Assembly: GCA_022446795.1 (NCBI GenBank)
Contig: JAKVBX010000001.1
Location: 350,107 to 414,106, forward strand
Source: Phycisphaerales bacterium
GTDB taxonomy: Bacteria; Planctomycetota; Phycisphaerae; Phycisphaerales; SM1A02
Reading direction: 5' to 3'
Length of the DNA stretch: 64,000 nt
Part shown: positions 1,769-52,258 of the stretch, piece after piece
Layout: the number at the start of each line of letters is the position of its first letter
Numbering within the stretch: position 1 is the stretch's first letter
Notes under the pieces: model-generated
What the model saw: the letters and a program-made list of their open reading frames with translations, nothing else
Told to the model about the DNA's origin: nothing
Databases searched by the model: none
Program-made: the position numbers and the translations under genes

Positions 1769-3673
1769 CTAGTTCTGGTCGTCCTTGACCTCGTACTCGG
1801 CATCGATGACGTCATCGTTGCCGTCCGGGGCGTCCGCGGACTCGGCGGCGCCATCGGCCGGAGCCTCGGCGGCAGCGGACTCGTAGACCGCCTTGCCCAG
1901 TTCGGTAGCACCCTCGGTGAGCTTCTTCACGGCTGCTTCGATCGCGGCCTTGTCGTCACCCTTGAGCTTGTCCTCGAGGTTGGCGATATCGGCTTCGATG
2001 CTGGAGCGGACCTCGGCCGAGACCTTGTCGCCGTGCTCTTCCAGCTGCTTGCGAGTCGCGTAGACGATCTGCTCAGCCTGGTTCTTGACCTCGATGAGTT
2101 CACGCTTGGCCTTGTCCTCGCCGGCGTGCTGCTCGGCATCCTGCTTCATCGACTCGATCTCGTCCTTGGAGAGACCGCTGGAGCCGGTGATCTGGATGTT
2201 CTGGGTCTTGCCCGTGGTCTTGTCGGTCGCCGAGACATTCAGGATGCCGTTGGCGTCGATACCGAACTCGACCTCGATCTGCGGCATGCCGCGTGGTGCC
2301 GGGGGGATGTCCGTCAGGTCGAACTGGCCCAGCGTGCGGTTGTCACGAGCGAACTCGCGTTCACCCTGCAGCACGTGAATGGTCACGGAAGTCTGGCTGT
2401 CCGCCGCGGTCGAGAAGGTTTCCTTCTTCGACGTGGGGATCGTGGTGTTCTTCTCGATCAACCGGGTCATCAGTCCACCGAGGGTCTCGACACCCAGGCT
2501 CAGCGGGGTCACGTCCAGCAGCAGCACGTCCTTGACGTCGCCCTGGAGAACACCACCCTGGATGGCCGCGCCGATGGCGACGACCTCGTCGGGGTTGATG
2601 GACTTGTCCAACTCGGCGGTTCCGAAGATCTCCTTGGCGATCTCCTGCACCTTGGGGATGCGGGTGGAGCCACCGACCATCACGACGTCGGAAACGCCGG
2701 TGGCGGAGAGCTTGGCATCGGTCAGGGCGGTCTTGCAGGGCTCCATGAGCCGCTGGAACAGGTTGGCTGCGAGTTCCTCGAAGCGGGCCCGCGTGATCTT
2801 CACCTGCAGGTGCTTGGGACCAGAGGCATCGGCGGTGATGAACGGCAGGTTGACGGTCGTCTCCAGTTGCTGGGAGAGCTCGCACTTGGCCTTCTCGGCC
2901 GCTTCCTTGAGCCGCTGCAGGGCCATCTGGTCCTGGCGGACGTCGATGCCGTCGGTCTTGCGGAACTCCTCGGCGATCTCGTCGATGAGGACCTGGTCGA
3001 AGTCATCACCACCGAGGTGGCCATCGCCATTGGTGGCGAGTACTTCGAAGACACCATCGCCGATGTCGAGGATGGAGATATCAAACGTACCACCGCCGAG
3101 GTCGAAGACCGCGATCTTGGTATTGGTCTTCTTCTCCAGGCCGTAGGCCAGCGCGGCGGCTGTCGGCTCGTTGATGATCCGCTCGACCGTGAGGCCGGCG
3201 ATCTCACCAGCGTCCTTCGTCGCCTGTCGCTGGGCATCGTTGAAGTAGGCGGGAACCGTGATGACGGCCTTGTCCACCTGCTCGCCCAGGTACTCCTCGG
3301 CGATCTGCTTGAGATCGCGGAGGATCACGGCGGAGATCTCGGAGGGGGTGGACTGCTTGCCACCGGCCTCGACCTTGACCAGGTCGTCTCCGCTTCCAAC
3401 GACGGTGTAGGGAACCTGCGTCTCCTCGGACTGCACCTCGTTGTGGCGCCGTCCCATGAAACGCTTGATGGAGTAGATGGTGTTGGTGGGGTTGGTCACC
3501 TGCTGGTGGCGGGCGGGTTGGCCCACGAGGCGATCACCCTTGTCGGTAAAAGCCACGACCGACGGCGTGGTCCGGTTTCCGGAGGTGTTGATGAGCACCT
3601 TGGGTTGGTCGCCTTCCATGACGGCGACACAGGAGTTGGTGGTGCCCAGGTCGATTCCAATGATCTTGGACAT
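1769..3673 (-). CDS. dnaK: Chaperone protein DnaK (Hsp70)
   Basis: Full-length Hsp70 of 634 residues. The N-terminal ATPase begins [20 protein letters not shown], with the phosphate-loop motif [16 protein letters not shown] near residue 190 and [10 protein letters not shown] near 335. The substrate-binding domain and acidic C-terminus ([13 protein letters not shown]) are intact. It folds and refolds proteins with DnaJ and GrpE, neither of which is adjacent. The start has AAGGAGAA seven bases upstream. No CIRCE element is present. Instead a sigma-54 -24/-12 motif lies at 3773-3789 with a palindrome at about -71. Two hairpins follow the stop. Identity is certain; sigma-54 control is an inference. 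Confidence 0.99.
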
Positions 3674-41078: not shown

Positions 41079-42695
41079 TCAGGCCGGTTCCGCCTTGATG
41101 CCCTGGGACTCGGCCCTCTTCTCAATGCCCCCCAGGAAGATCTCGGCGAGAGCCTCGTAGATCGCCTTGCGGCAGACCAGTCGGGAGCACTCGTAGGCCA
41201 GGATCGACGAGGCAATCAGTGGCAGGGTCACGAATCTCGCATCGGTCATCTCGATCATGATCACGAAGACGGTAATGGGGCTCTGCACCACGCCCGCGAA
41301 GTAGGCCACCATGAACAGCATGATCACGAACTGGGGATCGATCCCCCCGAACACATCGTGGAACAAGTCAGCGCAGAGATTCCCCAGCCCGGCACCGACC
41401 GACAGGCTGGGATCAAAGAGCCCCCCGGGGATCCCACTGATCAGGCTGAAGTAACTGCCCCCGGCCTTCATGAACGGATACCACCAGGGATAGCCCTCGG
41501 GACGGTGCCATTCGTCATAGAACGCCCGTTCCTCCGGATCACCGAGCACGTGATAGGCCGTTTCCACGGCATAGGCTTCCGGATCCAGTTCGTCGGCACC
41601 CGTGAGAAGCGGCTGCCTGTTCTGCCGGGTGTCGTAGGCCGCGTGGATCTCCTCGTGCGTGGCATCCTTCGTCACCCCAAGCGTGCCGTAGAAGTCCGTC
41701 CCGCGATACATCAGGATTGCCTTGGCCTGCGGATAGCCGCTGCCGTAGGACTGTCCTCCACTGGCCAGCCCGATGCCGGCGAGGCACAGGCCAAGGACGC
41801 CGGCGGTCAGGTAGGGATGCTTCCGGACATTTCGCGTCACCACGGGCGTTCCCAGGACCACCCCACGGGCGAACAGGCCTCCGAGGAATCCGCCGATGCA
41901 GGCGATGACCGGCACGGCCAGCCAGTGGATGATGTCGAATCCGAAGTGTCGGTTGATGCTGCCATAGAACAGGTAGTCCCATCCCAGCATGGCGATGACC
42001 ACGAGTGACGCCAGCAGGACCACGCGAACGATGGTGCTGGCGTTGTTCTTGTCGAATGACCGACCGATCTCCTCGAAGGCGAAGATCATCCCGGCAATGG
42101 GCGCGTTGAAGGCAGCGGCGATACCCGCCCCGCCACCACCGAGGATCAGGCCACGCTGCACCAGGTGCTTCGGGAACTTGGTGATCTTCGTGATGCCGTA
42201 CATGAAGCAGGCACCCACGTGCACCGATGGCCCCTCGCGTCCGATCGTCATGCCCGAGAACAGGCCCAGGCACAACAGGATCGTCTTCCCGATCAGGATC
42301 CGCCACGAGAGCATGAACTTCCGGATGGGTCCGTCCTTGACGTGGAGGGACGCAATCGCCTGCGGAATACCGGTGCCCTCGGTTCCTGGGAAGAACCGGT
42401 CACGAACCCGCATGATCACGATCATCGACACGGTGATCAGCACCATGCCCAGCACGACGCCGAGCGTGCCATCCACCTTCCAGCCCATCCACTCGTGCTG
42501 GCCGGTCAGGGCCCGGAAGAACTGGAACCCCCAGATGTCGACCTCTCGGAAGAACAGGGCAAACAGCCCGGTGAGGCACGCCGCCACGATGACGAGCCCA
42601 TGACGCCACCAGGCCATCCAGGAGAACACCGTGGTTCGCCAGAGGTGTGCGTCCTCCAGTTCAGGTGGTGACTGGTTCTCGTGCGGTGTGCTCAT
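41079..42695 (-). CDS. CLC chloride/proton antiporter with an inserted J-domain-like segment
   Basis: Membrane protein of 538 residues. CLC motifs are GTGIP (107-111), GREGP (152-156, gating Glu154), internal proton Glu209 in AFEEIGRSF, and GGLFDP (424-429), so an exchanger rather than a passive channel is likely. Residues 333-397 are an insert not found in normal CLCs, lying between GSGYPQAKAILMY and the GGLFDP filter loop. It reads TDFYGTLGVTKDATHEEI, then AYAVETAYHVLGDPEERAFYDEW, the pattern of a J-domain with helices II and III. The HPD tripeptide is absent (NRQP instead). It sits at the edge of the hsp20 cluster, though separated by an HdeD-like gene. Confidence 0.9.
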   Translation of the reverse strand: MSTPHENQSPPELEDAHLWRTTVFSWMAWWRHGLVIVAACLTGLFALFFREVDIWGFQFFRALTGQHEWMGWKVDGTLGVVLGMVLITVSMIVIMRVRDRFFPGTEGTGIPQAIASLHVKDGPIRKFMLSWRILIGKTILLCLGLFSGMTIGREGPSVHVGACFMYGITKITKFPKHLVQRGLILGGGGAGIAAAFNAPIAGMIFAFEEIGRSFDKNNASTIVRVVLLASLVVIAMLGWDYLFYGSINRHFGFDIIHWLAVPVIACIGGFLGGLFARGVVLGTPVVTRNVRKHPYLTAGVLGLCLAGIGLASGGQSYGSGYPQAKAILMYRGTDFYGTLGVTKDATHEEIHAAYDTRQNRQPLLTGADELDPEAYAVETAYHVLGDPEERAFYDEWHRPEGYPWWYPFMKAGGSYFSLISGIPGGLFDPSLSVGAGLGNLCADLFHDVFGGIDPQFVIMLFMVAYFAGVVQSPITVFVIMIEMTDARFVTLPLIASSILAYECSRLVCRKAIYEALAEIFLGGIEKRAESQGIKAEPA

Positions 42696-42839
42696 GCGTC
42701 CTCTCGTGCCACGGCAGCAGCCATCGAGGGGCGTTTATACCGCGCCCCCGGCTGCCAGGGGCCACCAGGGCCATCTGCACACCATTTTGCCGGGTCGGTG
42801 AAAGAACCCCCGGGGTGGTGCGTTATCCCTTTGGAACAC

Positions 42840-42935
42840 AAGCATCCCGCCGATGGGTGAAGCCGGCGGATCATGAAACTCTCTCCTCTCTCCTCCTGGA
42901 GTTCCGCGTGTCGTTACGCGGCACTCCTTTTTTTT
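42840..42935 (+). ncRNA. Candidate small RNA ending in an orphan intrinsic terminator
   Basis: Hairpin CCGCCG/CGGCGG (42847-42869), then an unpaired pyrimidine run (42880-42897, CTCTCTCCTCTCTCCTCC) complementary to Shine-Dalgarno sequences, then a 12-position stem (two facing mismatched bases) followed by T8. No plus-strand gene lies upstream for more than 2.5 kb, since the clc gene is on the other strand. The 5' end and promoter are not resolved. Structure seen; transcript inferred. Confidence 0.4.
42898..42935 (+). terminator. Strong intrinsic terminator, plus strand
   Basis: Stem 42898-42909 with 42916-42927, six-base loop, followed by eight Ts at 42928-42935. On the minus strand there is no U-run, so it does not look like the terminator of the hdeD-like gene. 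Confidence 0.8.
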
Positions 42936-42960
42936 ATGGAGACGAGAGAGGACCGCGTGT

Positions 42961-43569
42961 TCAGCTGGCCGTGGCCATCGCCGGAGGATCTGCTTCGATG
43001 CCGCCGTTGCGCAGGGCATTCCAGGTGGCCACCAGGATCAACCCGAGGAAGAACAACTGGATACCGAAGAGCAGGCCGGGCGCCCAGAGCGCATCGCGAG
43101 GCCACCAGATCACCAGGAGAACGGCCAGCACGATGCTGCCGATGCCGCCGATGAACTGGAGCCCGGGCGCCACGTGTGACCGCGTGGGCATGCCGAAGAC
43201 ATCCATGAGTCCCCGCAGGAAGCACCAGCCCGCGAGAACCAGCGTCACGATCTCCAGGCTCTCGAATGGCCACACGAGGAAAAGTACGCCAAGCCCCCCG
43301 ATGAGCAGCGCATTGACGAGGTTCAGGAGCACCGACTCCGAACCACCCATGAAGGTGCGGGCCAGGAGGACCACGCCGGACAGGATGGACATCCACCCCA
43401 GGATGAGGATCAGGATGGTGGAGGCGATGAAGGGCGAGATGACCATCGCGAAGAGCCCGCACAGCAGGAGCAGGATGCCCTCCACCAGGACGACGCCCCG
43501 GGCTTGCCGCAGGCGTTCACGGATCTCCCAGGGATTGACGCTTCCAACCGACGCGTGAGGTGTTTCCAT
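42961..43569 (-). CDS. HdeD-like (DUF308) six-helix membrane protein
   Basis: Membrane protein of 202 residues with six hydrophobic helices from about 25 to 190 (GVVLVEGILLLLCGLFAMVI; ILILILGWMSILSGVVLLAR; and so on), in the three-pair repeat typical of DUF308/HdeD. In E. coli HdeD is linked to acid resistance, but the mechanism is unknown. AAGGAAGG precedes the ATG. It has its own sigma-70-like promoter (43618-43646), unlike the hsp20 genes upstream, and its mRNA would begin with a hairpin (43594-43611). Its position among chaperone genes suggests a stress role. Confidence 0.87.
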   Translation of the reverse strand: METPHASVGSVNPWEIRERLRQARGVVLVEGILLLLCGLFAMVISPFIASTILILILGWMSILSGVVLLARTFMGGSESVLLNLVNALLIGGLGVLFLVWPFESLEIVTLVLAGWCFLRGLMDVFGMPTRSHVAPGLQFIGGIGSIVLAVLLVIWWPRDALWAPGLLFGIQLFFLGLILVATWNALRNGGIEADPPAMATAS

Positions 43570-43617
43570 CGACAGGCCTTCCTTGGTTCCAGGGGCACCG
43601 GCTTCGGTGCCGGGCGA

Positions 43618-43646
43618 AGCCTACTCGTTCGGCATCGGCTTGTCAC
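43618..43646 (-). promoter_or_regulatory. Sigma-70-type promoter of the hdeD-like gene
   Basis: Minus strand GTGACA, 17-base spacer, TAGGCT. The predicted start is near 43611, so the 42-base leader begins with the GGCACCG/CGGTGCC hairpin at 43594-43611. Confidence 0.6.
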
Positions 43647-43684
43647 CGCCGAGAACATGGGAAAGGGCCTGAACGATCAGGCGA

Positions 43685-43714
43685 CACGGTGTCCAGCCGA
43701 AACCGGACACCGTG
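43685..43714. repeat. 10-bp inverted repeat upstream of the hdeD-like promoter
   Basis: CACGGTGTCC and GGACACCGTG, perfect, separated by ten bases. It lies between the hsp20 terminator and the hdeD-like promoter (about -74 to -103 from its start). It could be a regulator site or an RNA hairpin. Confidence 0.4.
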
Positions 43715-43734
43715 CCGCCCATTCAGGAGAGAGT

Positions 43735-43773
43735 AAAGAAAAAGCCGGGGCCGCCCCACCGCGGCGACCCCGG
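43735..43773 (-). terminator. Intrinsic terminator after the last hsp20 gene
   Basis: An 11-bp stem with one G-U pair (43745-43755 with 43763-43773), seven-base loop, then CTTTTTCTTT on the minus strand, 20 bases after the hsp20 stop. Confidence 0.85.
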
Positions 43774-43792
43774 TGAGCCGAGGGCTACGCGC

Positions 43793-44206
43793 TCACTCGG
43801 CCCTGACCTCGATAGTTCGTGTTCCCGTCGGCGCCAGCTTCGGCAGCCGAACGGTCAGGATTCCGTCCTTGCAGGTGGCACTGATCTGGCTGACATCAAT
43901 GCCGTCTCCGATTCGGAAGCGGCGATGGAAGTCGCCGATCCCGTACTCTCGATGCAGAACGCGTCCCAGGTTCTCGTACCGGTTGGACACCGTGCTGGTC
44001 ACCTCGAGGGTGTTGTCCTCGACGGAGAGGTCGATGCCGTCCGCCGTGGCCCCGGGCATGTCCGCGACGATGGTGAACTCACCGTCCGCCTCGTAGACGT
44101 CAATCGGTGCCCGGTAGTACTGCGGCCGCTTGGTGACGTTGTCATGGCGAGGGGCCAGGGCGTCGGTGCCGCAACAGGTGTTGTAGTTGGTCATGCTTGT
44201 GTTCAT
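43793..44206 (-). CDS. Hsp20/alpha-crystallin family small heat-shock protein (copy A)
   Basis: Chaperone of 137 residues. A short N-terminus with a CC pair (MNTSMTNYNTCCG) is followed by the alpha-crystallin domain from about 33 (YYRAPIDVYEADGEFTIVADMPG) to the end, with the DGILTVRLPK strand and no usual I-x-I tail beyond TIEVRAE. AGGAG lies seven bases before the ATG at 44206. It follows hsp20 copy B by 55 bp and shares its sigma-54 promoter by inference. It would hold unfolding proteins for DnaK. The intrinsic terminator follows directly. Confidence 0.93.
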   Translation of the reverse strand: MNTSMTNYNTCCGTDALAPRHDNVTKRPQYYRAPIDVYEADGEFTIVADMPGATADGIDLSVEDNTLEVTSTVSNRYENLGRVLHREYGIGDFHRRFRIGDGIDVSQISATCKDGILTVRLPKLAPTGTRTIEVRAE

Positions 44207-44261
44207 GGAAGTGCTCCTACGATCTGCAGGTGTACGTGTTCGTGGTGTTCTCGATTCGGTA

Positions 44262-44693
44262 TCAGCCCTCGGTGACCTGGACTCGACGTGCCTTGGCGTT
44301 TTCGCTCTTGGGCATCGTGAGCAGGAGGACACCTTCACGAAGCACGGCCTCGGTGCCGTTGGCCTCGACGTTGGCCGGAAGCGAGATGGAACGCTCGAAC
44401 TCCAGGTCGCCTCGCTCGCGACGGATCGCATTGGTATCGACCGGAGTCGTCACGGTGCGTCGGCCGCTGATCGTCAGCACGCCGTCGGCCACGGTGACAT
44501 CCACGTCTTCCATCCGGACGCCGGGCAGCTCGGCCTCGACGTACACGTTGTTGTCGTCGTCGATCATGTTGAGCGACGGGTAGGCTCGCGTGCCGGAGTG
44601 GGAGGCAAGGACGTTGTCAAACATGCGTTCCACTTCATTTCGTACGAGCGTCATGGCGTTGCCTGCGGGAGTAAAGAGTGCGCGTGTGTTCAT
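44262..44693 (-). CDS. Hsp20 family small heat-shock protein (copy B), sigma-54-type promoter
   Basis: Chaperone of 143 residues. N-terminal arm includes LVRNEVERMFDNVL, then the alpha-crystallin domain (PSLNMIDDDNNVYVEAELPGV to VLLLTMPKSENAKARRVQV). This is the most conventional Hsp20 of the four. GGAGGT precedes the ATG at 44693. A perfect sigma-54 motif lies at 44796-44812 with tandem inverted repeats further upstream, giving a predicted 92-base leader. It heads a two-gene unit with copy A. Confidence 0.94.
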   Translation of the reverse strand: MNTRALFTPAGNAMTLVRNEVERMFDNVLASHSGTRAYPSLNMIDDDNNVYVEAELPGVRMEDVDVTVADGVLTISGRRTVTTPVDTNAIRRERGDLEFERSISLPANVEANGTEAVLREGVLLLTMPKSENAKARRVQVTEG

Positions 44694-44795
44694 GGCACAC
44701 CTCCGTTTGGTTGTCCGGAAGACCAGTAGGCTTCCGGGTTGAATCTTGTTCGGACACTTTGAAAAACGTTTTCTTCGTGTGTCCATTCCAGGGAA

Positions 44796-44812
44796 TGCAA
44801 GGGCCGTGCCAG
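44796..44812 (-). promoter_or_regulatory. Sigma-54 (RpoN) -24/-12 promoter of hsp20 copy B
   Basis: Minus strand CTGGCACGGCCCTTGCA, a perfect match to TGGCACG-N4-TTGCW. The predicted start is near 44785. Seen directly; function inferred. Confidence 0.75.
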
Positions 44813-44853
44813 TTGTGTTCCGGCGTTTAAGCGGCCCTAAACCGGATGCCAGG

Positions 44854-44886
44854 TGCCGCTTCGGCAGGCGTGCTGCCGCTTCGGCA
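44854..44886. promoter_or_regulatory. Tandem 13-bp inverted repeats, candidate enhancer-binding sites
   Basis: Two identical copies of TGCCGCTTCGGCA (TGCCG-N3-CGGCA) at 44854-44866 and 44874-44886, 20 bp centre to centre (about two helix turns), centred near -75 and -95 from the predicted sigma-54 start. This is the classic position for an activator of sigma-54 promoters. Confidence 0.55.
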
Positions 44887-44910
44887 TGCCCCTTCCAGGG
44901 GCCTTCAAGT

Positions 44911-44940
44911 CGTCCCCCGGGAGCGGACTCCCGGGGGACG
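44911..44940 (-). terminator. Terminator hairpin after hsp20 copy C
   Basis: Perfect 13-bp stem (44911-44923 with 44928-44940) and four-base loop, 48 bases after the stop of copy C. No U-run. A smaller GCCCC/GGGGC hairpin follows at 44888-44902. Confidence 0.6.
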
Positions 44941-44987
44941 AGATCAAGTGCCATTCGACAGGTGGGCGTGTGCCCATTCCGTCACGG

Positions 44988-45941
44988 TCAGGCCACTGCG
45001 GCCACCGTGTTGCGGATTCGGGAAGGGGTTCCCGTGATCGCATTGACCTTGGGCAGGCTGATGGTCAGCACGCCGTTGGTGATGCTCGCCGTGATGTCCT
45101 CGACAGTGATGTCGCGGCCGATGGCGAAGGCACGCTGGTAGATCTTGACCGCGGCCTTTTCCCGGGAAATCGTGGCCACCGGGGTGGTAACGCTGAGGCC
45201 GGGGACGAAGGTCGTGGACTGGGCCACGCCCTTGATCACCAGGATGCCGTTCTCGACGGTCAGTTCGAGATCGTCGATCTTCACGCCGGGGAGGTCGGCG
45301 ACCAGCAGGTACTGGGAGCCGTCATCCAGGACGTCGATCGGCAGATGAGCGATGACCGGCTGGCCGGTGATCGCAGCCTGCTGCGACAGGGCGACGTTGC
45401 CAGGCGTGTTGTAGCCCATCGCATTCATGCCGAGGGTGTTGGCGCCCATGGCATTCATGCCGAGGGTGTTGATCATCGGGCTCACTGACTGGGCGGCGAC
45501 GGCAGGCGTGTTGAGGCCGGAAAGGCCGTTGAAGCTCGAGGCCTGGCCGTTGAAGCCGGTCATCCAGGGGCTGAAGCCCATGGCGGGAGCGGCGTAGGCA
45601 GCCGTGGTCGTGAAGGGATTCACGAAGGACTCGGACTGCCACATGCCCGGGAGCTGGCCCATGAAGGCGTTCTGCCGGGCGTACGGCAGCGTGCTGGCAG
45701 CGAACGTGGCCGGGGTGTTCCAGGCCGAAGCGGCGGACAGATCGGTCATCGCATTCATGCCGGCGAAAGGCATGTTCCAGCTCATGGATGCCGGGGTGTT
45801 CCAGGCGCCGAAGGAGGCATTCATCGTGGGCTGAACGCCGACGAAGTCATAGCCACCCATTCCCAGTGTTGCACCGTTGTTGAAGAGATTCGACTGAACC
45901 TTGTTGGTGCCCGTTTCCTTGACTTGAACTTTGATAGCCAT
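44988..45941 (-). CDS. Hsp20 family protein with a long low-complexity, prion-like N-terminal region (copy C)
   Basis: Protein of 317 residues, about twice the normal Hsp20 length. The alpha-crystallin domain is residues 198-305 (VIAHLPIDVLDDGSQYLLVADLPG to NGVLTISLPK). The first 195 residues are rich in Asn, Ala, Met, Gly and Phe with hardly any charge, and contain four W/L/Y-N-T-P-A/G motifs and two tandem NTLGMNAMG units. Such composition favours self-association or condensate formation. AAGGAG precedes the ATG. It follows the zinc-finger Hsp20 gene by 92 bp, with a hairpin (45992-46010) between. Confidence 0.9.
   Translation of the reverse strand: MAIKVQVKETGTNKVQSNLFNNGATLGMGGYDFVGVQPTMNASFGAWNTPASMSWNMPFAGMNAMTDLSAASAWNTPATFAASTLPYARQNAFMGQLPGMWQSESFVNPFTTTAAYAAPAMGFSPWMTGFNGQASSFNGLSGLNTPAVAAQSVSPMINTLGMNAMGANTLGMNAMGYNTPGNVALSQQAAITGQPVIAHLPIDVLDDGSQYLLVADLPGVKIDDLELTVENGILVIKGVAQSTTFVPGLSVTTPVATISREKAAVKIYQRAFAIGRDITVEDITASITNGVLTISLPKVNAITGTPSRIRNTVAAVA
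45415..45471. repeat. Tandem repeat inside the hsp20 copy C N-terminal region
   Basis: Two near-identical copies of a 27-base unit (one mismatch) with a 30-base period, encoding NTLGMNAMG twice. It marks the low-complexity arm as a product of recent slippage or duplication. Confidence 0.8.
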
Positions 45942-45991
45942 CTCGAAACTCCTTATGAAGAGATGCTTTTCAAACGCGGTCCGAGGGGTCC

Positions 45992-46010
45992 CCCGCGTGA
46001 CGTACGCGGG
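45992..46010 (-). other. Intercistronic hairpin between hsp20 copies D and C
   Basis: CCCGCGT/ACGCGGG, 7-bp stem and five-base loop, 23 bases after the copy D stop. No U-run. It may protect the upstream mRNA or attenuate read-through. Confidence 0.4.
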
Positions 46011-46033
46011 TTCCAGATCGCCTCGGTTTGAAA

Positions 46034-46561
46034 TCAGTTGGCGTTCATTCCCAATACCGCTGCGGCCTCGGGACGCTCGATGGGAAGGACCAGCCGCAGT
46101 ACACCGTCAAGCAGGTTGGCTCGAATGGCACTGATGCGGGTCACATCAACCGCCTCGGGCAACTCGATGATCCGTTCCGTGGCGGGCTGCATCCGCTCGC
46201 GAGCGATCTGCACCGGTGATTCGGGTGCATCCACTCGTGGGAGCGTCCGGATCGTGACGGTTCGTTCCTGGACGGCGACGTCCAGGTCCCGGGCCACGAC
46301 GCCAGGCACTTCCATATCGATGATCAGCCAGCCAGCGGCTTCCACCACCGAGGTGTTGGGGACGACGGTGGGGCGGACCACACCGGTGCCATTGCAGTCC
46401 TGGCACATCAAGGACCCTGTAATGTCCAGGCCCAACAGGCCCGTCGACACCTCGCCCGTGCCCTGGCACGCCCGGCAGGTTGTCGCCTCGGCGTTGGCAA
46501 TAGCGGAGTAGGTCCGTGAATTCGTGGACGTGTTGGTCGGAGCAGTCATCAACGTAGTCAT
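46034..46561 (-). CDS. Hsp20 family protein with a DnaJ-type zinc-knuckle pair at its N-terminus (copy D)
   Basis: Protein of 175 residues. Residues 29-36 (CRACQGTG) and 53-60 (CQDCNGTG) are two CxxCxGxG motifs, the zinc-binding repeat that defines the DnaJ cysteine-rich domain; together four cysteines could bind one zinc. The alpha-crystallin domain follows at about 70-165 (GWLIIDMEVPGVVARDLDVA to GVLRLVLPIERPE). GGGAG lies before the ATG at 46561. First of the hsp20 series. Both domains are clear in the sequence; zinc binding and client transfer are inferred. Confidence 0.9.
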   Translation of the reverse strand: MTTLMTAPTNTSTNSRTYSAIANAEATTCRACQGTGEVSTGLLGLDITGSLMCQDCNGTGVVRPTVVPNTSVVEAAGWLIIDMEVPGVVARDLDVAVQERTVTIRTLPRVDAPESPVQIARERMQPATERIIELPEAVDVTRISAIRANLLDGVLRLVLPIERPEAAAVLGMNAN

Positions 46562-46659
46562 GGTTGTTCTCCCTTGACTGTCTTGGTGGGAGCGGATCCG
46601 ATCCACTCCCGTACTGAAGGCTCGCCGTTCGATCCAGTGGCGAGACGAAACACCACGAC

Positions 46660-46674
46660 ACAACCGGCGTGCCG
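46660..46674 (-). promoter_or_regulatory. Degenerate sigma-54-like element upstream of the zinc-finger hsp20
   Basis: Minus strand CGGCACGCCGGTTGT: the -24 half is nearly perfect, but the -12 GC is GT. The predicted leader is 87 bases, matching dnaK (89) and hsp20 B (92). A second weak candidate with correct GG/GC spacing lies at 46724-46740. Confidence 0.3.
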
Positions 46675-46779
46675 ATTCGCCACGAATCCGAGCGGGAATG
46701 TCACGAATACCCGTTGGCGCTACTGCAAAGCCGGGTCCTGGTAGATGAAAGTCGCCGGCCACGAGAATCGCGGCGGCCC

Positions 46780-46805
46780 GGGTTCGTGCGTTGGTTCACG
46801 AACCC
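46780..46805. repeat. 9-bp perfect inverted repeat between apbE and hsp20 copy D
   Basis: GGGTTCGTG and CACGAACCC separated by eight bases, about 32 bases after the apbE stop. Either the apbE terminator (no U-run) or an operator for the hsp20 operon. Confidence 0.4.
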
Positions 46806-46836
46806 CCCTCCAGCGATGCCACCGGGGCAGCCGAAT

Positions 46837-47814
46837 TCACGGTTTGGCAGTCGGCTCCACGGCAGGTGGCAGGAACCGCACTCCGCTGCCAGCTGGCAGC
46901 AGTGATTCGGCCCTTTCGACCCCGACAACCGCTGCCACCGACGCCCAGGCATCCGCCCGGGCTGCGGTCGGGGCGATCACCGTGAACTGGCCGTGGTCAA
47001 CCACGGCCTCGCCCGTACGAGGATCCAGCAAGTGGGACAGTCGCCGGTCGCCGACCTGTATGAACTGCTCCGTGGCCCCCGAGGTGGCCACGCCGTGGTT
47101 CGCCAGCACCAGCGGCGACTCACGGCCCGGCGCAGAGATCCGCCAGCCACGTGTCCCGGGTGGAGCATCCCCCACCGCGATGTCACCACCAAAGTCGACC
47201 AGGGCTTGGTGAATGCCTCGCGCGTCGAGGACCTCCAACGCGGCATCGGCCGCATAGCCCTTGCCGATCCCGCCGAAATCCAGTTCAACGCCCGCGTGTT
47301 CTATTAATAGAACTGGGCCGTGTTCATCATGGCCCCGCTGCAGCCCCTCCCAGCCACATGACCGCCTGGCCTCCTCAATGGCCGCCGCCGCCGGCACTCG
47401 ACCCTGGTCACGGGCCTCCCGCCACAATCTCGTCAAGGCGCCGCAGGACACGTCGAAGACCCCCTGGCTTGCCCGCGAGACCTCCAGGGCTTGTGCCAGG
47501 GTGGCATCGAGATCCGGGCTGATGGGCACTGCTTCCCCAGCTGGCTGCTCCCGAAGGCGAGCGACTTCCGAGTCAACCTGCCAGTCGCTCAGGGCGGCCT
47601 CGATGTCAGCCATTCGGCCAAAGGCCGCTTCAGCAGCCTGGGTCGCGGTGGCCTCGTCCCGGCAATAGAAGGTCAGATCTACCCGGGCCCCCATTCGTAA
47701 TCGGGAGAATTCATATCGCTGGGCCGCGGGCTGGCCTGAACTGCACCCCCAGGGCCCGATTGGGGACAGGACCAGCAGTATGATGACTGGGATGAGGATC
47801 TTGACGTCGTTCAT
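46837..47814 (-). CDS. ApbE-family FAD:protein FMN transferase (lipoprotein)
   Basis: Envelope protein of 325 residues that attaches FMN to threonine of target flavoproteins. The signal helix ILIPVIILLVLSPIG ends at a cysteine (PWGCSSG) that is a plausible lipobox. Family motifs are FDVSCGALTRLWREA, LDFGGIGKGYAADAAL, LVDFGGDIAVG, SGATEQF and LLDPRTGEAV, with the metal site TVIAPTAARADAWAS. A target (Rnf/Nqr or urocanate-reductase-like) is not in the window. Start 47814 overlaps the start region of the divergent FGE-like gene by 23 bases. Confidence 0.92.
   Translation of the reverse strand: MNDVKILIPVIILLVLSPIGPWGCSSGQPAAQRYEFSRLRMGARVDLTFYCRDEATATQAAEAAFGRMADIEAALSDWQVDSEVARLREQPAGEAVPISPDLDATLAQALEVSRASQGVFDVSCGALTRLWREARDQGRVPAAAAIEEARRSCGWEGLQRGHDEHGPVLLIEHAGVELDFGGIGKGYAADAALEVLDARGIHQALVDFGGDIAVGDAPPGTRGWRISAPGRESPLVLANHGVATSGATEQFIQVGDRRLSHLLDPRTGEAVVDHGQFTVIAPTAARADAWASVAAVVGVERAESLLPAGSGVRFLPPAVEPTAKP
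47779..47784 (+). promoter_or_regulatory. -10 box of the FGE-like gene (leaderless configuration)
   Basis: TATGAT ends seven bases before the ATG at 47792 and lies inside the apbE coding region on the other strand. No clear -35. Confidence 0.4.
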
Positions 47815-48667
47815 GCGTATGGCCAGGCCGACAGCATATGTCGCCACTGGCCTGTTGCTGGCCCAGGCGGCTGGAACCGCCACCCTGGCCGAACCTCCCG
47901 CGGACCAAGCAGCCCCCAAGGCCGACACCCCCAAGCCGGTGACCTGTGAGATCCCGGGCACGGCCCTGGAACTTCGAATGGTGCCGGTCCCCGGGCCGGA
48001 CGGCAAGACCGCCTTCTGGATCTCGGACGCGGAAATCAGTTGGGACCATTACGACGTCTTCGTCTACGAACTGGATGAACCCGCCAATGAAGACGTGGAC
48101 GCCGTCACTCGACCGACTCGACCGTACATTTCCGCCGACCGCGGATGGGGCCACGCCGGGTACCCGGCGCTGAGCATCTCTCACCGCGGCGCGAACGCCT
48201 TCTGCAAGTGGGTCGCCGCCAGTACCGGACGTCCCTATCGCCTCCCCACCGTCGAGGAATGGAAGCAGATCTGCAAGGCGGCAGGTGTCTCCGCGGAAAA
48301 CAGCGAAGAACACGGCTGGCTCGCGGGCAATGCCAAGCGGCGGACCCACAAGCTCCGATCCAGGAAACCCGATGCCCTCGGCCTGCACGACCTGCACGGC
48401 AACGTCTCGGAATGGTGCCGAAGCGGCGAGGGCGAGGACGACTTCGTGCTCGTCGGAGCCTGCTACAGCGACGACACGGTCGAATGCGATCTCATCAAGA
48501 CCCCGATTCCAGACTGGAATGACACTGATCCCCAGATTCCCAAGAGTATCTGGTGGCTTTCCGATGCCCCCTTCGCGGGGTTCCGGGTAGTGTGTGAATC
48601 ACCCCTGCCCTCGGCGAAATCGCCCACGGTGCAGGAAGATCAACGCCCTCGAGGAGGTACCCCATGA
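47792..48667 (+). CDS. Formylglycine-generating-enzyme-like (SUMF1-fold) exported protein
   Basis: Protein of 291 residues. Signal peptide to about residue 35 (ending GTATLAEPP), then an FGE-sulfatase fold: GHAGYPALSISHRGANAFCKWV, RPYRLPTVEEWKQICKAAG, DLHGNVSEWCRSGEG and FAGFRVVCE. The paired active-site cysteines of true formylglycine enzymes are not evident and no sulfatase gene is near, so it is probably a substrate-binding or structural member. ATG 47792 is chosen because a -10 box lies seven bases upstream; later starts at 47813 or 47819 would also give a signal peptide. It overlaps the next gene (ATGA). Confidence 0.8.
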   Translation: MRILTSFMRMARPTAYVATGLLLAQAAGTATLAEPPADQAAPKADTPKPVTCEIPGTALELRMVPVPGPDGKTAFWISDAEISWDHYDVFVYELDEPANEDVDAVTRPTRPYISADRGWGHAGYPALSISHRGANAFCKWVAASTGRPYRLPTVEEWKQICKAAGVSAENSEEHGWLAGNAKRRTHKLRSRKPDALGLHDLHGNVSEWCRSGEGEDDFVLVGACYSDDTVECDLIKTPIPDWNDTDPQIPKSIWWLSDAPFAGFRVVCESPLPSAKSPTVQEDQRPRGGTP

Positions 48668-49989
48668 CCACGCCAAGGAACAACGAACCGACTCGTACCG
48701 ACGTCTCTCGACGGCGATTCGTCAAGGCCTCGACCGCCACGGTGGGCGTTGCCGCACTGACCTCTCCAGCCGTGGGCTGGATCCAGGGTTCCGACACCAT
48801 CAAGGTCGGACTCATCGGCTGCGGCGGCCGCGGAACCGGTGCCGCCGGCCAGGCCATGCGGGCCGACAAGGGCGTCCAGCTCTGGGCCATGGGTGATGCG
48901 TTCGACGATCGGCTCACCAGCAGCCATGGACACCTGGTCAACGGCCATGGCGACCAGGTGCAGGTTGACTCCGAACGCCAGTTCGTCGGATTCGATGCGT
49001 ACCAGAAGGTCATTGACTCCGGGGTGGACGTGGTCATCCTGACAACCCCGCCCCACTTCCGCCCCGAGCACTTCAAGTACGCCGTCGACAAGAAGAAGCA
49101 CGTGTTCATGGAGAAGCCCATGGCCGTGGACGGTCCGGGCGTGCGATCCGTGATCGCCGACGCCCAACGGGCCAAAGAACAGGGCACCAACGTGATGGGC
49201 GGCTTCTGCTGGCGATACAACCATCCCAACCGCGAGTGCTATGCCCGCATCCACGATGGCGCCATCGGCGACGTCAAGTGCGTGCATTCCACCTACCTCA
49301 CCGGACCGCTGGGCAAGAAGGAGCGGCAGCCCGAGTGGAGCGACATGGAATGGCAGATGCGGAACTGGTGGCACTTCAACTGGCTCTCGGGCGACCACAT
49401 CGCCGAGCAGGCCTGCCATGCCATCGACAAGATCAACTGGGCCAAGAACAACATGCAGCCGGACCGCTGCATCACGGTCGGTGGCCGACAGATGAGAAGC
49501 GGCCCTGAGTCGGGCAACGTCTACGATCACTTCTCCGTGGTCTACGAGTATCCCGATGGCACCCGGTCCTTCCATGACTGCCGCCAGATGCCCAACTGCT
49601 GGAGCGACAACACCGAGAAGATCTTCGGCACCAAGGGTGACTGCTATGTCAACTCGTGGGGTCCGACCCAGATCATCACCGGCGAGAATCCCTGGGAATA
49701 TGAAGGGCCCAATCCCAACATGTACCAGGTCGAGCACAATGAGCTCTTCAAGGCGATCCGTGACGGCAACCTGATCAATGACGGCCCCGAGATGACCCGA
49801 AGCACGTTGATGTCCATCATGGGACGGATGTCGGCCTACAACGGCCAGCCCGTGACCTACGAAGAGGCGCTCAACAGTGACGATCGCCTCGGTCCCACCG
49901 TGTACGAGTGGGGTAACGTTCCCGTGCTGGACGTGTCCGTGCCGGGCTCACCCGCCCGTTGGGCCGACGTCCAGGTCGCATCGAAGTGA
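48664..49989 (+). CDS. Tat-exported Gfo/Idh/MocA family oxidoreductase (first copy)
   Basis: NAD(P)-dependent sugar oxidoreductase of 441 residues. Twin-arginine signal SRRRFVKASTATVGVAAL, Rossmann motif VGLIGCGGRGTGAA at about 48-62, TTPPHFRPEHFKYAV and the catalytic EKP in HVFMEKPMAVD. The C-terminal beta-sheet domain includes WSDMEWQMRNWWHFNWLSGDHIAEQ, conserved in planctomycete members. It likely oxidises or reduces a sugar hydroxyl in the periplasm with a tightly bound cofactor. GAGGAGGT precedes the ATG. It overlaps both neighbours. 441 residues is normal for the exported subgroup. Confidence 0.93.
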   Translation: MTTPRNNEPTRTDVSRRRFVKASTATVGVAALTSPAVGWIQGSDTIKVGLIGCGGRGTGAAGQAMRADKGVQLWAMGDAFDDRLTSSHGHLVNGHGDQVQVDSERQFVGFDAYQKVIDSGVDVVILTTPPHFRPEHFKYAVDKKKHVFMEKPMAVDGPGVRSVIADAQRAKEQGTNVMGGFCWRYNHPNRECYARIHDGAIGDVKCVHSTYLTGPLGKKERQPEWSDMEWQMRNWWHFNWLSGDHIAEQACHAIDKINWAKNNMQPDRCITVGGRQMRSGPESGNVYDHFSVVYEYPDGTRSFHDCRQMPNCWSDNTEKIFGTKGDCYVNSWGPTQIITGENPWEYEGPNPNMYQVEHNELFKAIRDGNLINDGPEMTRSTLMSIMGRMSAYNGQPVTYEEALNSDDRLGPTVYEWGNVPVLDVSVPGSPARWADVQVASK

Positions 49990-50900
49990 GCGGCTTCTCC
50001 CGCCGGGACTTCATTCGATCCACTGCCGCAACCGCGGCCGCCAGTTCCCTGGCGCAGGCTGCGCAGGAACAACCCGCCGGTACGCCAGCGGCGAAGCAGC
50101 GTGACATCAAGATGTCGCTCAAGATCGGCATGATCCAGGAGGGCGACACCCTCCTGGAGAAGTTCCGTATCGCCAAGGCCGCCGGCTTCGACGGCGTGGA
50201 ACTGGACAGCCCCGGCATCCCGCCGGTGCAGGATGTCCGGGATGCCTGCTCCGATACGGGACTGATCGTTCCCGGTGTGGTCGGCAGTTTCCACTGGCAC
50301 GACCAACTGGCTCATCCCGATGCCGCTGCCCGTGAACGCGGAGAAGCGGCGCTGGCCACGGCGATCCGGGATTGTCGCGCCGTGGGTGGCTCCACCGTGC
50401 TGCTGGTTCCAGCGGTCGTGGGTCCCACGGTGGACTACGACGATGCCTGGACACGATCGACCGCCGCCATCGAGCGGGCGCTGCCGCTGGCCCAGGAACT
50501 GGGCGTGGCCATCGCGCTGGAGAACGTCTGGAACAACTTCCTGCTGAGCCCGATGGAAGCAAGCCGGTACGTCGATCAGTTCAAGAGTCCACACGTGGGC
50601 TGGTACTTCGACGTCGGCAATATCGTGGCCTATGGCTGGCCACCGCAGTGGGTGAAGATCCTCGGACCGAGGATCCTCAAGTTGGATGTCAAGGAATACA
50701 GTCGCGCGAAGCTCGACCAGGAGGGACGATGGGCTGGTTTCAGTGTTCCCATCGGCGAAGGCGACTGCCAGTGGACGGAAACAATGGCAGCCCTGGACGA
50801 CGTCGGGTATGCCGGCTGGGCCAGTGCTGAAGTTGGTGGAGGCGACTCAACTCGCCTCGCCGAGATCGCCCGACGAATGAAGACGGTGCTGAACGCCTGA
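49986..50900 (+). CDS. Tat-exported sugar-phosphate-isomerase-like TIM-barrel protein
   Basis: Protein of 304 residues starting at GTG 49986, which overlaps the previous stop (GTGA). Tat signal SRRDFIRSTAATAAASSLA. The barrel begins LKIGMIQEGDTLLEKFRIAK and has the metal glutamate regions FDGVELDSPG, VAIALENVWNNFLLSP, VGWYFDVGNIVAYGWP, LDVKEYSRAK and ASAEVGGGD, as in xylose-isomerase-like epimerases (family AP_endonuc_2). Substrate unknown. It is sandwiched between two Gfo/Idh dehydrogenases, so it probably isomerises or cleaves their product. Confidence 0.9.
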   Translation: MSGFSRRDFIRSTAATAAASSLAQAAQEQPAGTPAAKQRDIKMSLKIGMIQEGDTLLEKFRIAKAAGFDGVELDSPGIPPVQDVRDACSDTGLIVPGVVGSFHWHDQLAHPDAAARERGEAALATAIRDCRAVGGSTVLLVPAVVGPTVDYDDAWTRSTAAIERALPLAQELGVAIALENVWNNFLLSPMEASRYVDQFKSPHVGWYFDVGNIVAYGWPPQWVKILGPRILKLDVKEYSRAKLDQEGRWAGFSVPIGEGDCQWTETMAALDDVGYAGWASAEVGGGDSTRLAEIARRMKTVLNA

Positions 50901-50944
50901 GCAGGCATGCCCGGCAGAACGACCGACAGCGGAAGGACACTCCC

Positions 50945-52258
50945 ATGAGCGAACAGAACGGACAACCAGATCGACGAACCATGGTCAAGGCCACCGCTGC
51001 CGCTGCCGGCCTCGCCGTCGTGCCATCACTCCTCGGCCGAACCGCGCATGCCGCTGGCCAGGAGACGATCACGGTCGGCCTCGTGGGCTGTGGCGGCCGA
51101 GGAACCGGGGCCGCCTTCAATGCGATGGAGGCCTCGCCCGAGGCCCGCATCGTCGCACTGGCCGACGTATTCCCCGATCGGCTGCAGGGCGCTCGCAACA
51201 ATCTTCAGAAGCGCGAGCAGTGCACCGTCACGAATGACGACTGCTACGTGGGTTTCGACGCCTACCAGAAGCTCATGGCGCGTGACGATGTCGATGTCGT
51301 GATCCTGGCCACCCCGCCACACTTCCGACCCATGCACTTCGCTCACGCCATCGGCCAGGGCAAGCATGTGTTCATGGAGAAGCCCGTGGCCGTCGATCCC
51401 GCCGGTGTCCGCATCGTAATGGCCGCCTCCGACGAGGCGGACAGCAAGAACCTCTCGGTCGCTGCCGGGACGCAGCGACGACATGAGAAGTGCTACCTCG
51501 ATGTCATGGAGCGCATTCGCAACGGCGAGATCGGTGAACCCGTCGCCGCCCGGTGCTACTGGAACATGGGTGGACTCTGGAACCGTGGACGCCAGGACAA
51601 CTGGTCCGACATGGAATGGCAGATGCGCAACTGGCTGTACTTCACCTGGCTCAGCGGCGATCACATCGTCGAGCAGCATGTCCACAACCTGGACGCCACC
51701 AACTGGGCCCTGGGGGCGCATCCCATCCGGTGCACCGGCATGGGTGGTCGCCAGGCTCGAATCGATCCGTCCTATGGTCACATCTATGACCACTTCGCGA
51801 TCGACTACGAATATCCCAACGGGGTGCATGCCTTGAGCATGTGCCGCCAGGGTGACGGTTGTTCCAGCCGCGTGGAAGAGGCCATCCAGGGCACGAAGGG
51901 TCGCGCGGTCACCAGTTCCGGTCGCGCTCGACTCGAGGGTGGCCCCAGCTGGACCTTCGAGGGCAAGAACCCCAACCCCTACGTGGTCGAGCACCAGGAT
52001 CTGCACAACAGCCTGCGCGGCCAGGGCAATCGACTGAACGAAGGTCACCAGATCGCCGAATCCACCCTGACCGCGATCATGGGTCGAATGGCCGCCTACT
52101 CCGGCAAGGACATCACCTGGGAAGACGCGCTCAACGCGGACCTGGACATGACACCGCCGCAGTATGCCTTCGTGGAAATCGACATTCCCGAGATCCCGCG
52201 ACCGGGCCGCACCGCCCATGACGCGGAACTCTGGGTCAGCGACACACCGGGAGCATGA
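50945..52258 (+). CDS. Tat-exported Gfo/Idh/MocA family oxidoreductase (second copy)
   Basis: Oxidoreductase of 437 residues, clearly paralogous to the first copy (shared VGLxGCGGRGTGAA, TPPHFRPxHF, HVFMEKPxAVD, NWSDMEWQMRNWLYFTWLSGDHIVEQ). Tat-type signal RRTMVKATAAAAGLAVV, with Thr after the arginines. It differs most at the sugar-binding face (SYGHIYDHFAIDYEYPNG versus VYDHFSVVYEYPDG), so the two may act on different hydroxyls or in opposite directions. AAGGA occurs before the ATG; a 44-bp gap separates it from the TIM-barrel gene. Confidence 0.93.
   Translation: MSEQNGQPDRRTMVKATAAAAGLAVVPSLLGRTAHAAGQETITVGLVGCGGRGTGAAFNAMEASPEARIVALADVFPDRLQGARNNLQKREQCTVTNDDCYVGFDAYQKLMARDDVDVVILATPPHFRPMHFAHAIGQGKHVFMEKPVAVDPAGVRIVMAASDEADSKNLSVAAGTQRRHEKCYLDVMERIRNGEIGEPVAARCYWNMGGLWNRGRQDNWSDMEWQMRNWLYFTWLSGDHIVEQHVHNLDATNWALGAHPIRCTGMGGRQARIDPSYGHIYDHFAIDYEYPNGVHALSMCRQGDGCSSRVEEAIQGTKGRAVTSSGRARLEGGPSWTFEGKNPNPYVVEHQDLHNSLRGQGNRLNEGHQIAESTLTAIMGRMAAYSGKDITWEDALNADLDMTPPQYAFVEIDIPEIPRPGRTAHDAELWVSDTPGA

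Follow-up and report, generated by a model that had tools for sequence, protein, structure and literature searches.

Why should a gene for a small heat-shock protein (sHSP) in an uncultured Phycisphaerales bacterium also encode a pair of zinc-knuckle motifs of the DnaJ type, and what might this addition do for the protein? The gene lies on the minus strand at 46034..46561 of the window, by which we mean the whole stretch of 64,000 nucleotides that was analysed, and it codes for 175 amino acids. Its reading frame begins with an ATG preceded by a Shine-Dalgarno-like AAGGGAG, and the orthologues, found in five congeneric genomes, start at the same methionine. Two parts could be distinguished in the product. 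Sequence motifs, profiles and orthologue conservation delimit a putative zinc hairpin of residues 29-60, CRACQGTG-x16-CQDCNGTG (46382..46477, minus strand), whereas the PF00011 match and fold matches place an alpha-crystallin domain at about residues 66-165 (46067..46366, minus strand). Repeat 1, CRACQGTG (residues 29-36, 46454-46477), and repeat 2, CQDCNGTG (residues 53-60, 46382-46405), both conform exactly to CxxCxGxG. The initial annotation had described two such knuckles joined to an alpha-crystallin domain, and this description was borne out: the Hsp20 profile PF00011 matched the 175-residue protein over residues 81-165 with an E value of 4.4e-8 and 33.6 bits against a cut-off of 20.8, a cut-off that all five orthologues also passed.

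The alpha-crystallin domain carries the motif A-x-x-x-D-G-V-L at residues 148-155. In the predicted model, pLDDT values of about 70-83 were obtained for this domain, except around residues 111-130 and at the end. Comparison of the model with the PDB by Foldseek gave E values down to 3e-6 for solved sHSPs and revealed the alpha-crystallin beta-sandwich fold. At E <= 0.001, 66 PDB chains were matched, and the 50 of these among the matches listed are sHSPs or alpha-crystallin, the nearest solved structure being the sHSP of M. marinum (PDB 5zs3). By domain and by fold the product of 46034-46561 belongs to the small heat-shock family. The C-terminal IxI/V motif, which is common though not universal in sHSPs, was absent from the tails of all six orthologous proteins.

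For the hairpin, the DnaJ_CXXCXGXG profile (PF00684) gave 21.1 bits with the window protein (E 3.8e-4), which is statistically significant and lies below the cut-off of 32.7. The best match outside Hsp20 was the Pfam family Anti-TRAP (PF15777; E 7.1e-5, 23.2 bits, cut-off 32), and the NCBIfam anti-TRAP model gave 20.7 bits against a cut-off of 65. That the PF00684 and Anti-TRAP scores stay below the family cut-offs is expected, because the hairpin amounts to half a domain. The Anti-TRAP match speaks for a role as an adaptor, in which the hairpin docks one particular protein, as anti-TRAP binds TRAP, and not unfolded clients. A specific contact is also suggested by the segment LPRxDAPxxPVxIxR of the alpha-crystallin domain (residues 107-121), which varies hardly at all among the six species. 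However, PF00684 outscored Anti-TRAP in three of the four finger-bearing orthologues, and no candidate partner was found; we regard docking to a single partner as rather unlikely. In the three finger-bearing orthologues other than the window protein, PF00684 was matched with E values of 5e-6 to 4e-5 over profile positions 11-54, which, judged against the DnaJ of this genome, correspond to repeats 2 and 3.

Conservation within the hairpin is confined almost entirely to the motifs. Across the four orthologues that possess it, the eight motif residues are all invariant, as against one of the 28 other positions (Fisher P 3e-7); the four cysteines and four glycines are kept throughout these species while the intervening residues vary freely. 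Nonsynonymous divergence (dN) is 0.55-0.9 in the hairpin versus 0.17-0.30 in the alpha-crystallin domain, with synonymous sites near saturation. Since the motif residues have stayed invariant amid near-total divergence of the segment, the CxxCxGxG pair is not a product of chance, and the pattern indicates that selection holds the metal motif of the hairpin and not the surrounding sequence. As two CxxC pairs and glycines are nearly all that is conserved, the hairpin could also be a redox or zinc switch, opened by oxidation or zinc loss with an effect on oligomeric state or client binding, comparable to the CxxC-held zinc of Hsp33. The zinc motif of Hsp33 differs from that of the hairpin, however, and the glycines show the same degree of conservation as the cysteines, a pattern more in keeping with a fold than with a switch. 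The zinc domain of DnaJ does have a thiol-reductase activity, lost on deletion of the domain (PMC4428491), whereas ZnJ2 lacked oxidoreductase activity of this sort, and removal of its cysteines left the holding of clients at the level of the wild type (PMC5818400). A switch of this kind therefore appears unlikely, albeit worth keeping in view.

The first cysteines of the two repeats are 24 residues apart in the window protein and 24, 24 and 23 residues apart in the orthologues. In the genome's own DnaJ the corresponding spacings are 17 (repeats 1-2), 24 (repeats 2-3) and 14 (repeats 3-4). On account of the 24-residue spacing, the hairpin resembles one half of the DnaJ zinc domain. In the established structure of DnaJ, repeats 2 and 3 form zinc centre II, and the hairpin is probably the equivalent of this centre; the assignment rests mainly on spacing, residue similarity being best with the repeat pair 2-3 in three of the four members and with 3-4 in the window's own member. 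A full PF00684 domain has four repeats and two zinc centres. Here two repeats were found, with the exact motifs and the repeat 2-3 spacing of a single zinc centre, and the hairpin accordingly resembles the DnaJ cysteine-rich family in sequence without being a full member of it. Four predicted cysteine ligands in two CxxC pairs are present in four of the six orthologues and absent from two. The view of the initial annotation that two DnaJ-type repeats would make one zinc centre is supported, the pair being enough for one Cys4 site. AlphaFold gave pLDDT values under 50 for the hairpin, whether by itself or in context, and no confident structure; a search of solved structures with the isolated hairpin yielded nothing meaningful.

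According to Linke et al. 2003, as cited in PMC4428491, substrate binding is associated with centre I of DnaJ, and the interaction with DnaK with centre II. With the spacing of repeats 2 and 3, the hairpin would on that account correspond to the DnaK-linked centre and not to the substrate one, so that the label of a client-binding module given to it earlier does not fit. The same correspondence, together with the presence of a DnaK gene in the window, speaks for another proposal of the initial annotation, namely that the hairpin lets the holdase pass its clients directly to DnaK without DnaJ. Such a hand-over is nevertheless unlikely, because the protein has no J domain (no PF00226 match and no HPD anywhere in its 175 residues), because the genome encodes DnaK and, on another contig, a canonical four-repeat DnaJ, and because of what was observed for ZnJ2. 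This J-less holdase with a whole DnaJ-like zinc domain neither replaced DnaJ nor assisted DnaK/DnaJ/GrpE, with which it was not synergistic (PMC5818400). We consider a bypass of DnaJ highly improbable. The chance is equally slim that a holdase took half of the DnaJ zinc domain, centre II, to dock DnaK or a DnaK-bound client, which would place an sHSP directly in the Hsp70 cycle; if this were true, the two congeners without a finger would be natural controls.

The zinc-hairpin gene heads a run of four consecutive sHSP genes, all on the minus strand. It is followed by HspB (44988..45941, 317 amino acids, PF00011 E 4.7e-12), which is the next gene downstream by position and synteny and has a long N-terminal arm, by HspC (44262..44693, 143 amino acids, PF00011 E 4.5e-19), with a C-terminal VxV, and by HspD (43793..44203, 136 amino acids, PF00011 E 3.5e-18), with a C-terminal IEV. 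These neighbouring sHSPs are conserved in all six species. HspB starts with MAIKVQVKETG, and its arm abounds in Asn, Met and Ala; the sister genera have a different sequence behind the same KIQVK/KVQVK start. On the upstream side, an ApbE-like gene (46837..47925, minus strand, PF02424 E 1.9e-61) is a conserved neighbour by synteny. The same cluster contains a gene for an HdeD-like DUF308 membrane protein (42961..43569, minus strand, PF03729 E 6e-11), present in the window and at the loci of G515, G517 and G518; the stretches of G317 and G516 gave no match. It also contains a gene for a ClC chloride channel into which a J-like domain is inserted (41079..42695, minus strand, PF00654 E 4e-73, PF00226 E 6.6e-7). 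This J-like domain interrupts the channel domain at residues 334-394, scores above the PF00226 cut-off with 29.8 bits and lacks HPD; the insertion occurs in all six species of the genus, in nine genomes of the genus g298 and in two of g5, and is absent from the ClC of the cluster in g16 (G523). The syntenic block as a whole (41079-52258) comprises the ClC gene with its J-like insertion, the HdeD-like gene, three to four sHSP genes, the ApbE-like gene, a SUMF1-like gene, two Gfo/Idh oxidoreductase genes and a TIM-barrel gene, and recurs, slightly altered, in at least four genera. A complete dnaK lies 42 kb away in the same window (1769-3673, minus strand).

Roughly 100 bases before the start of the zinc-hairpin gene, on its upstream side, all six species carry the element CGGCAYG-N4-TTGTNT, which in the window reads CGGCACGCCGGTTGTGT (46658..46674, minus strand) and occurs nowhere else there. 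Judged by its spacing, it is possibly a sigma-54-like promoter with a changed -12 base. No CIRCE element was found in the window.

In all six genomes of the genus examined, the gene occupies the same locus between the ApbE-like gene and HspB. Both motifs are present in the genome of the window (G000) and in G317, G516 and G518 (the protein of G518 being the same as L035). In G515 (protein the same as L036, Phycisphaerales bacterium UBA3158) and G517 the hairpin is missing from the protein encoded at the same locus, which is shorter by about 32 residues and has a remnant CDNPRCE in its place. The initial annotation had named homologues with unconserved cysteines as an argument against its proposal, and this argument applies in part, to these two orthologues, while the other four keep the cysteines strictly. 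The absence of the hairpin from two species, the remnant common to both and the fast divergence of tail and N-terminus among the orthologues would suit a decaying relic devoid of present function. Against such decay speaks the invariance of eight motif residues in four species whose synonymous sites are close to saturation, and we judge a relic very improbable. Trees of the cluster genes left the base of the genus unresolved (support 28-54), and whether the finger was lost in G515 and G517 or gained in the others is therefore undecided by the trees; the shared remnant PRCE mildly favours loss. Because two congeneric species carry the same protein without it, the hairpin appears to be a dispensable specialisation.

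The sister genus g298 has the same cluster, and in two of its genomes (G508, G509) the slot holds a divergent, finger-less and possibly alpha-crystallin-like reading frame of weak homology (hhalign P about 0.03); in the sister genus g5 the cluster is present with nothing recognisable in this position. Searches for an sHSP-finger fusion outside the genus returned none in 397 genomes of the class, 181 of the family, 400 of the order and 392 of the phylum, which are overlapping sets. Matches in G391 and G806 with an apparent extension into the finger were rejected, as they have no cysteine pair. A contig scan across genomes matched only two congeners, and no fusion was found on viral contigs. Plasmid matches had less than 60% identity; those with a listed annotation are Hsp20 proteins, and a few of the matches extend into the finger region. 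As far as tested, the fusion is thus restricted to one genus of uncultured Phycisphaerales.

The N-terminal arm of an sHSP usually mediates assembly and client contact. We propose, with about as much confidence as doubt, that the protein is an accessory sHSP subunit of mixed oligomers, the N-terminal arm of which carries a single DnaJ-type Cys4 zinc hairpin as an interaction arm. The four cysteines would bind one zinc ion and so make a rigid beta-hairpin of the segment from about residue 27 to residue 64. The missing IxI/V tail, with VxV and IEV present in HspC and HspD, suggests the accessory role; since it has no such tail of its own, the zinc-hairpin sHSP would join mixed oligomers in that the groove of its alpha-crystallin domain takes up the tails of HspC and HspD. 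The hairpin would then be presented to clients or to a partner, and captured clients may reach DnaK via the ordinary DnaJ of the genome. Counting against this model are the low AlphaFold confidence for the hairpin and its absence from two of the six species. ER J proteins have a half-size DnaJ finger of 30 residues with four cysteines (PMC12799103), and anti-TRAP, with two CxxCxGxG motifs, binds zinc, which is essential for its oligomerisation (PMC2896485). Two motifs can therefore make a working module.

No report of an sHSP fused to a zinc or DnaJ finger was found in the open-access literature, judged from titles and abstracts, and the combination of these two chaperone modules is undescribed as far as our searches go. 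The genus offers a ready comparison, as the same gene at the same locus has the hairpin in four species and lacks it in two, which opens the role of a DnaJ zinc hairpin outside DnaJ to a direct test. The narrow range of the fusion limits its general consequence.

Among known systems, the plant and algal proteins ZnJ2, BSD2, ORANGE and PSA2 likewise have DnaJ-type zinc motifs outside DnaJ, ZnJ2 being a holdase; all four lack an alpha-crystallin domain, and ZnJ2 and BSD2 have four repeats. The ER J proteins DNAJB11 and atDjA8 share with the present protein a truncated DnaJ finger of about 30 residues and four cysteines, whereas they retain both the J domain and the CTDs, with disulfides presumed to hold the short finger (PMC12799103). 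Anti-TRAP (RtpA, PF15777) is similar as a small oligomeric protein with two CxxCxGxG motifs and one zinc site, zinc being predicted in our case. It differs as a 53-residue regulator of TRAP that has no alpha-crystallin domain and to which the match is below the cut-off. To centre II of the DnaJ cysteine-rich domain (PF00684) the hairpin is linked by the CxxCxGxG motifs and the 24-residue spacing; unlike DnaJ, the protein has two repeats instead of four and neither J domain nor CTD, and its match is below the Pfam cut-off. Finally, the protein departs from bacterial sHSPs (Hsp20, PF00011; PDB 5zs3) in the zinc hairpin of its N-terminal arm and in having no C-terminal IxI/V, and it agrees with them in its alpha-crystallin domain, the A-x-x-x-(D)-G-V-L motif, its sHSP gene neighbours and its fold.
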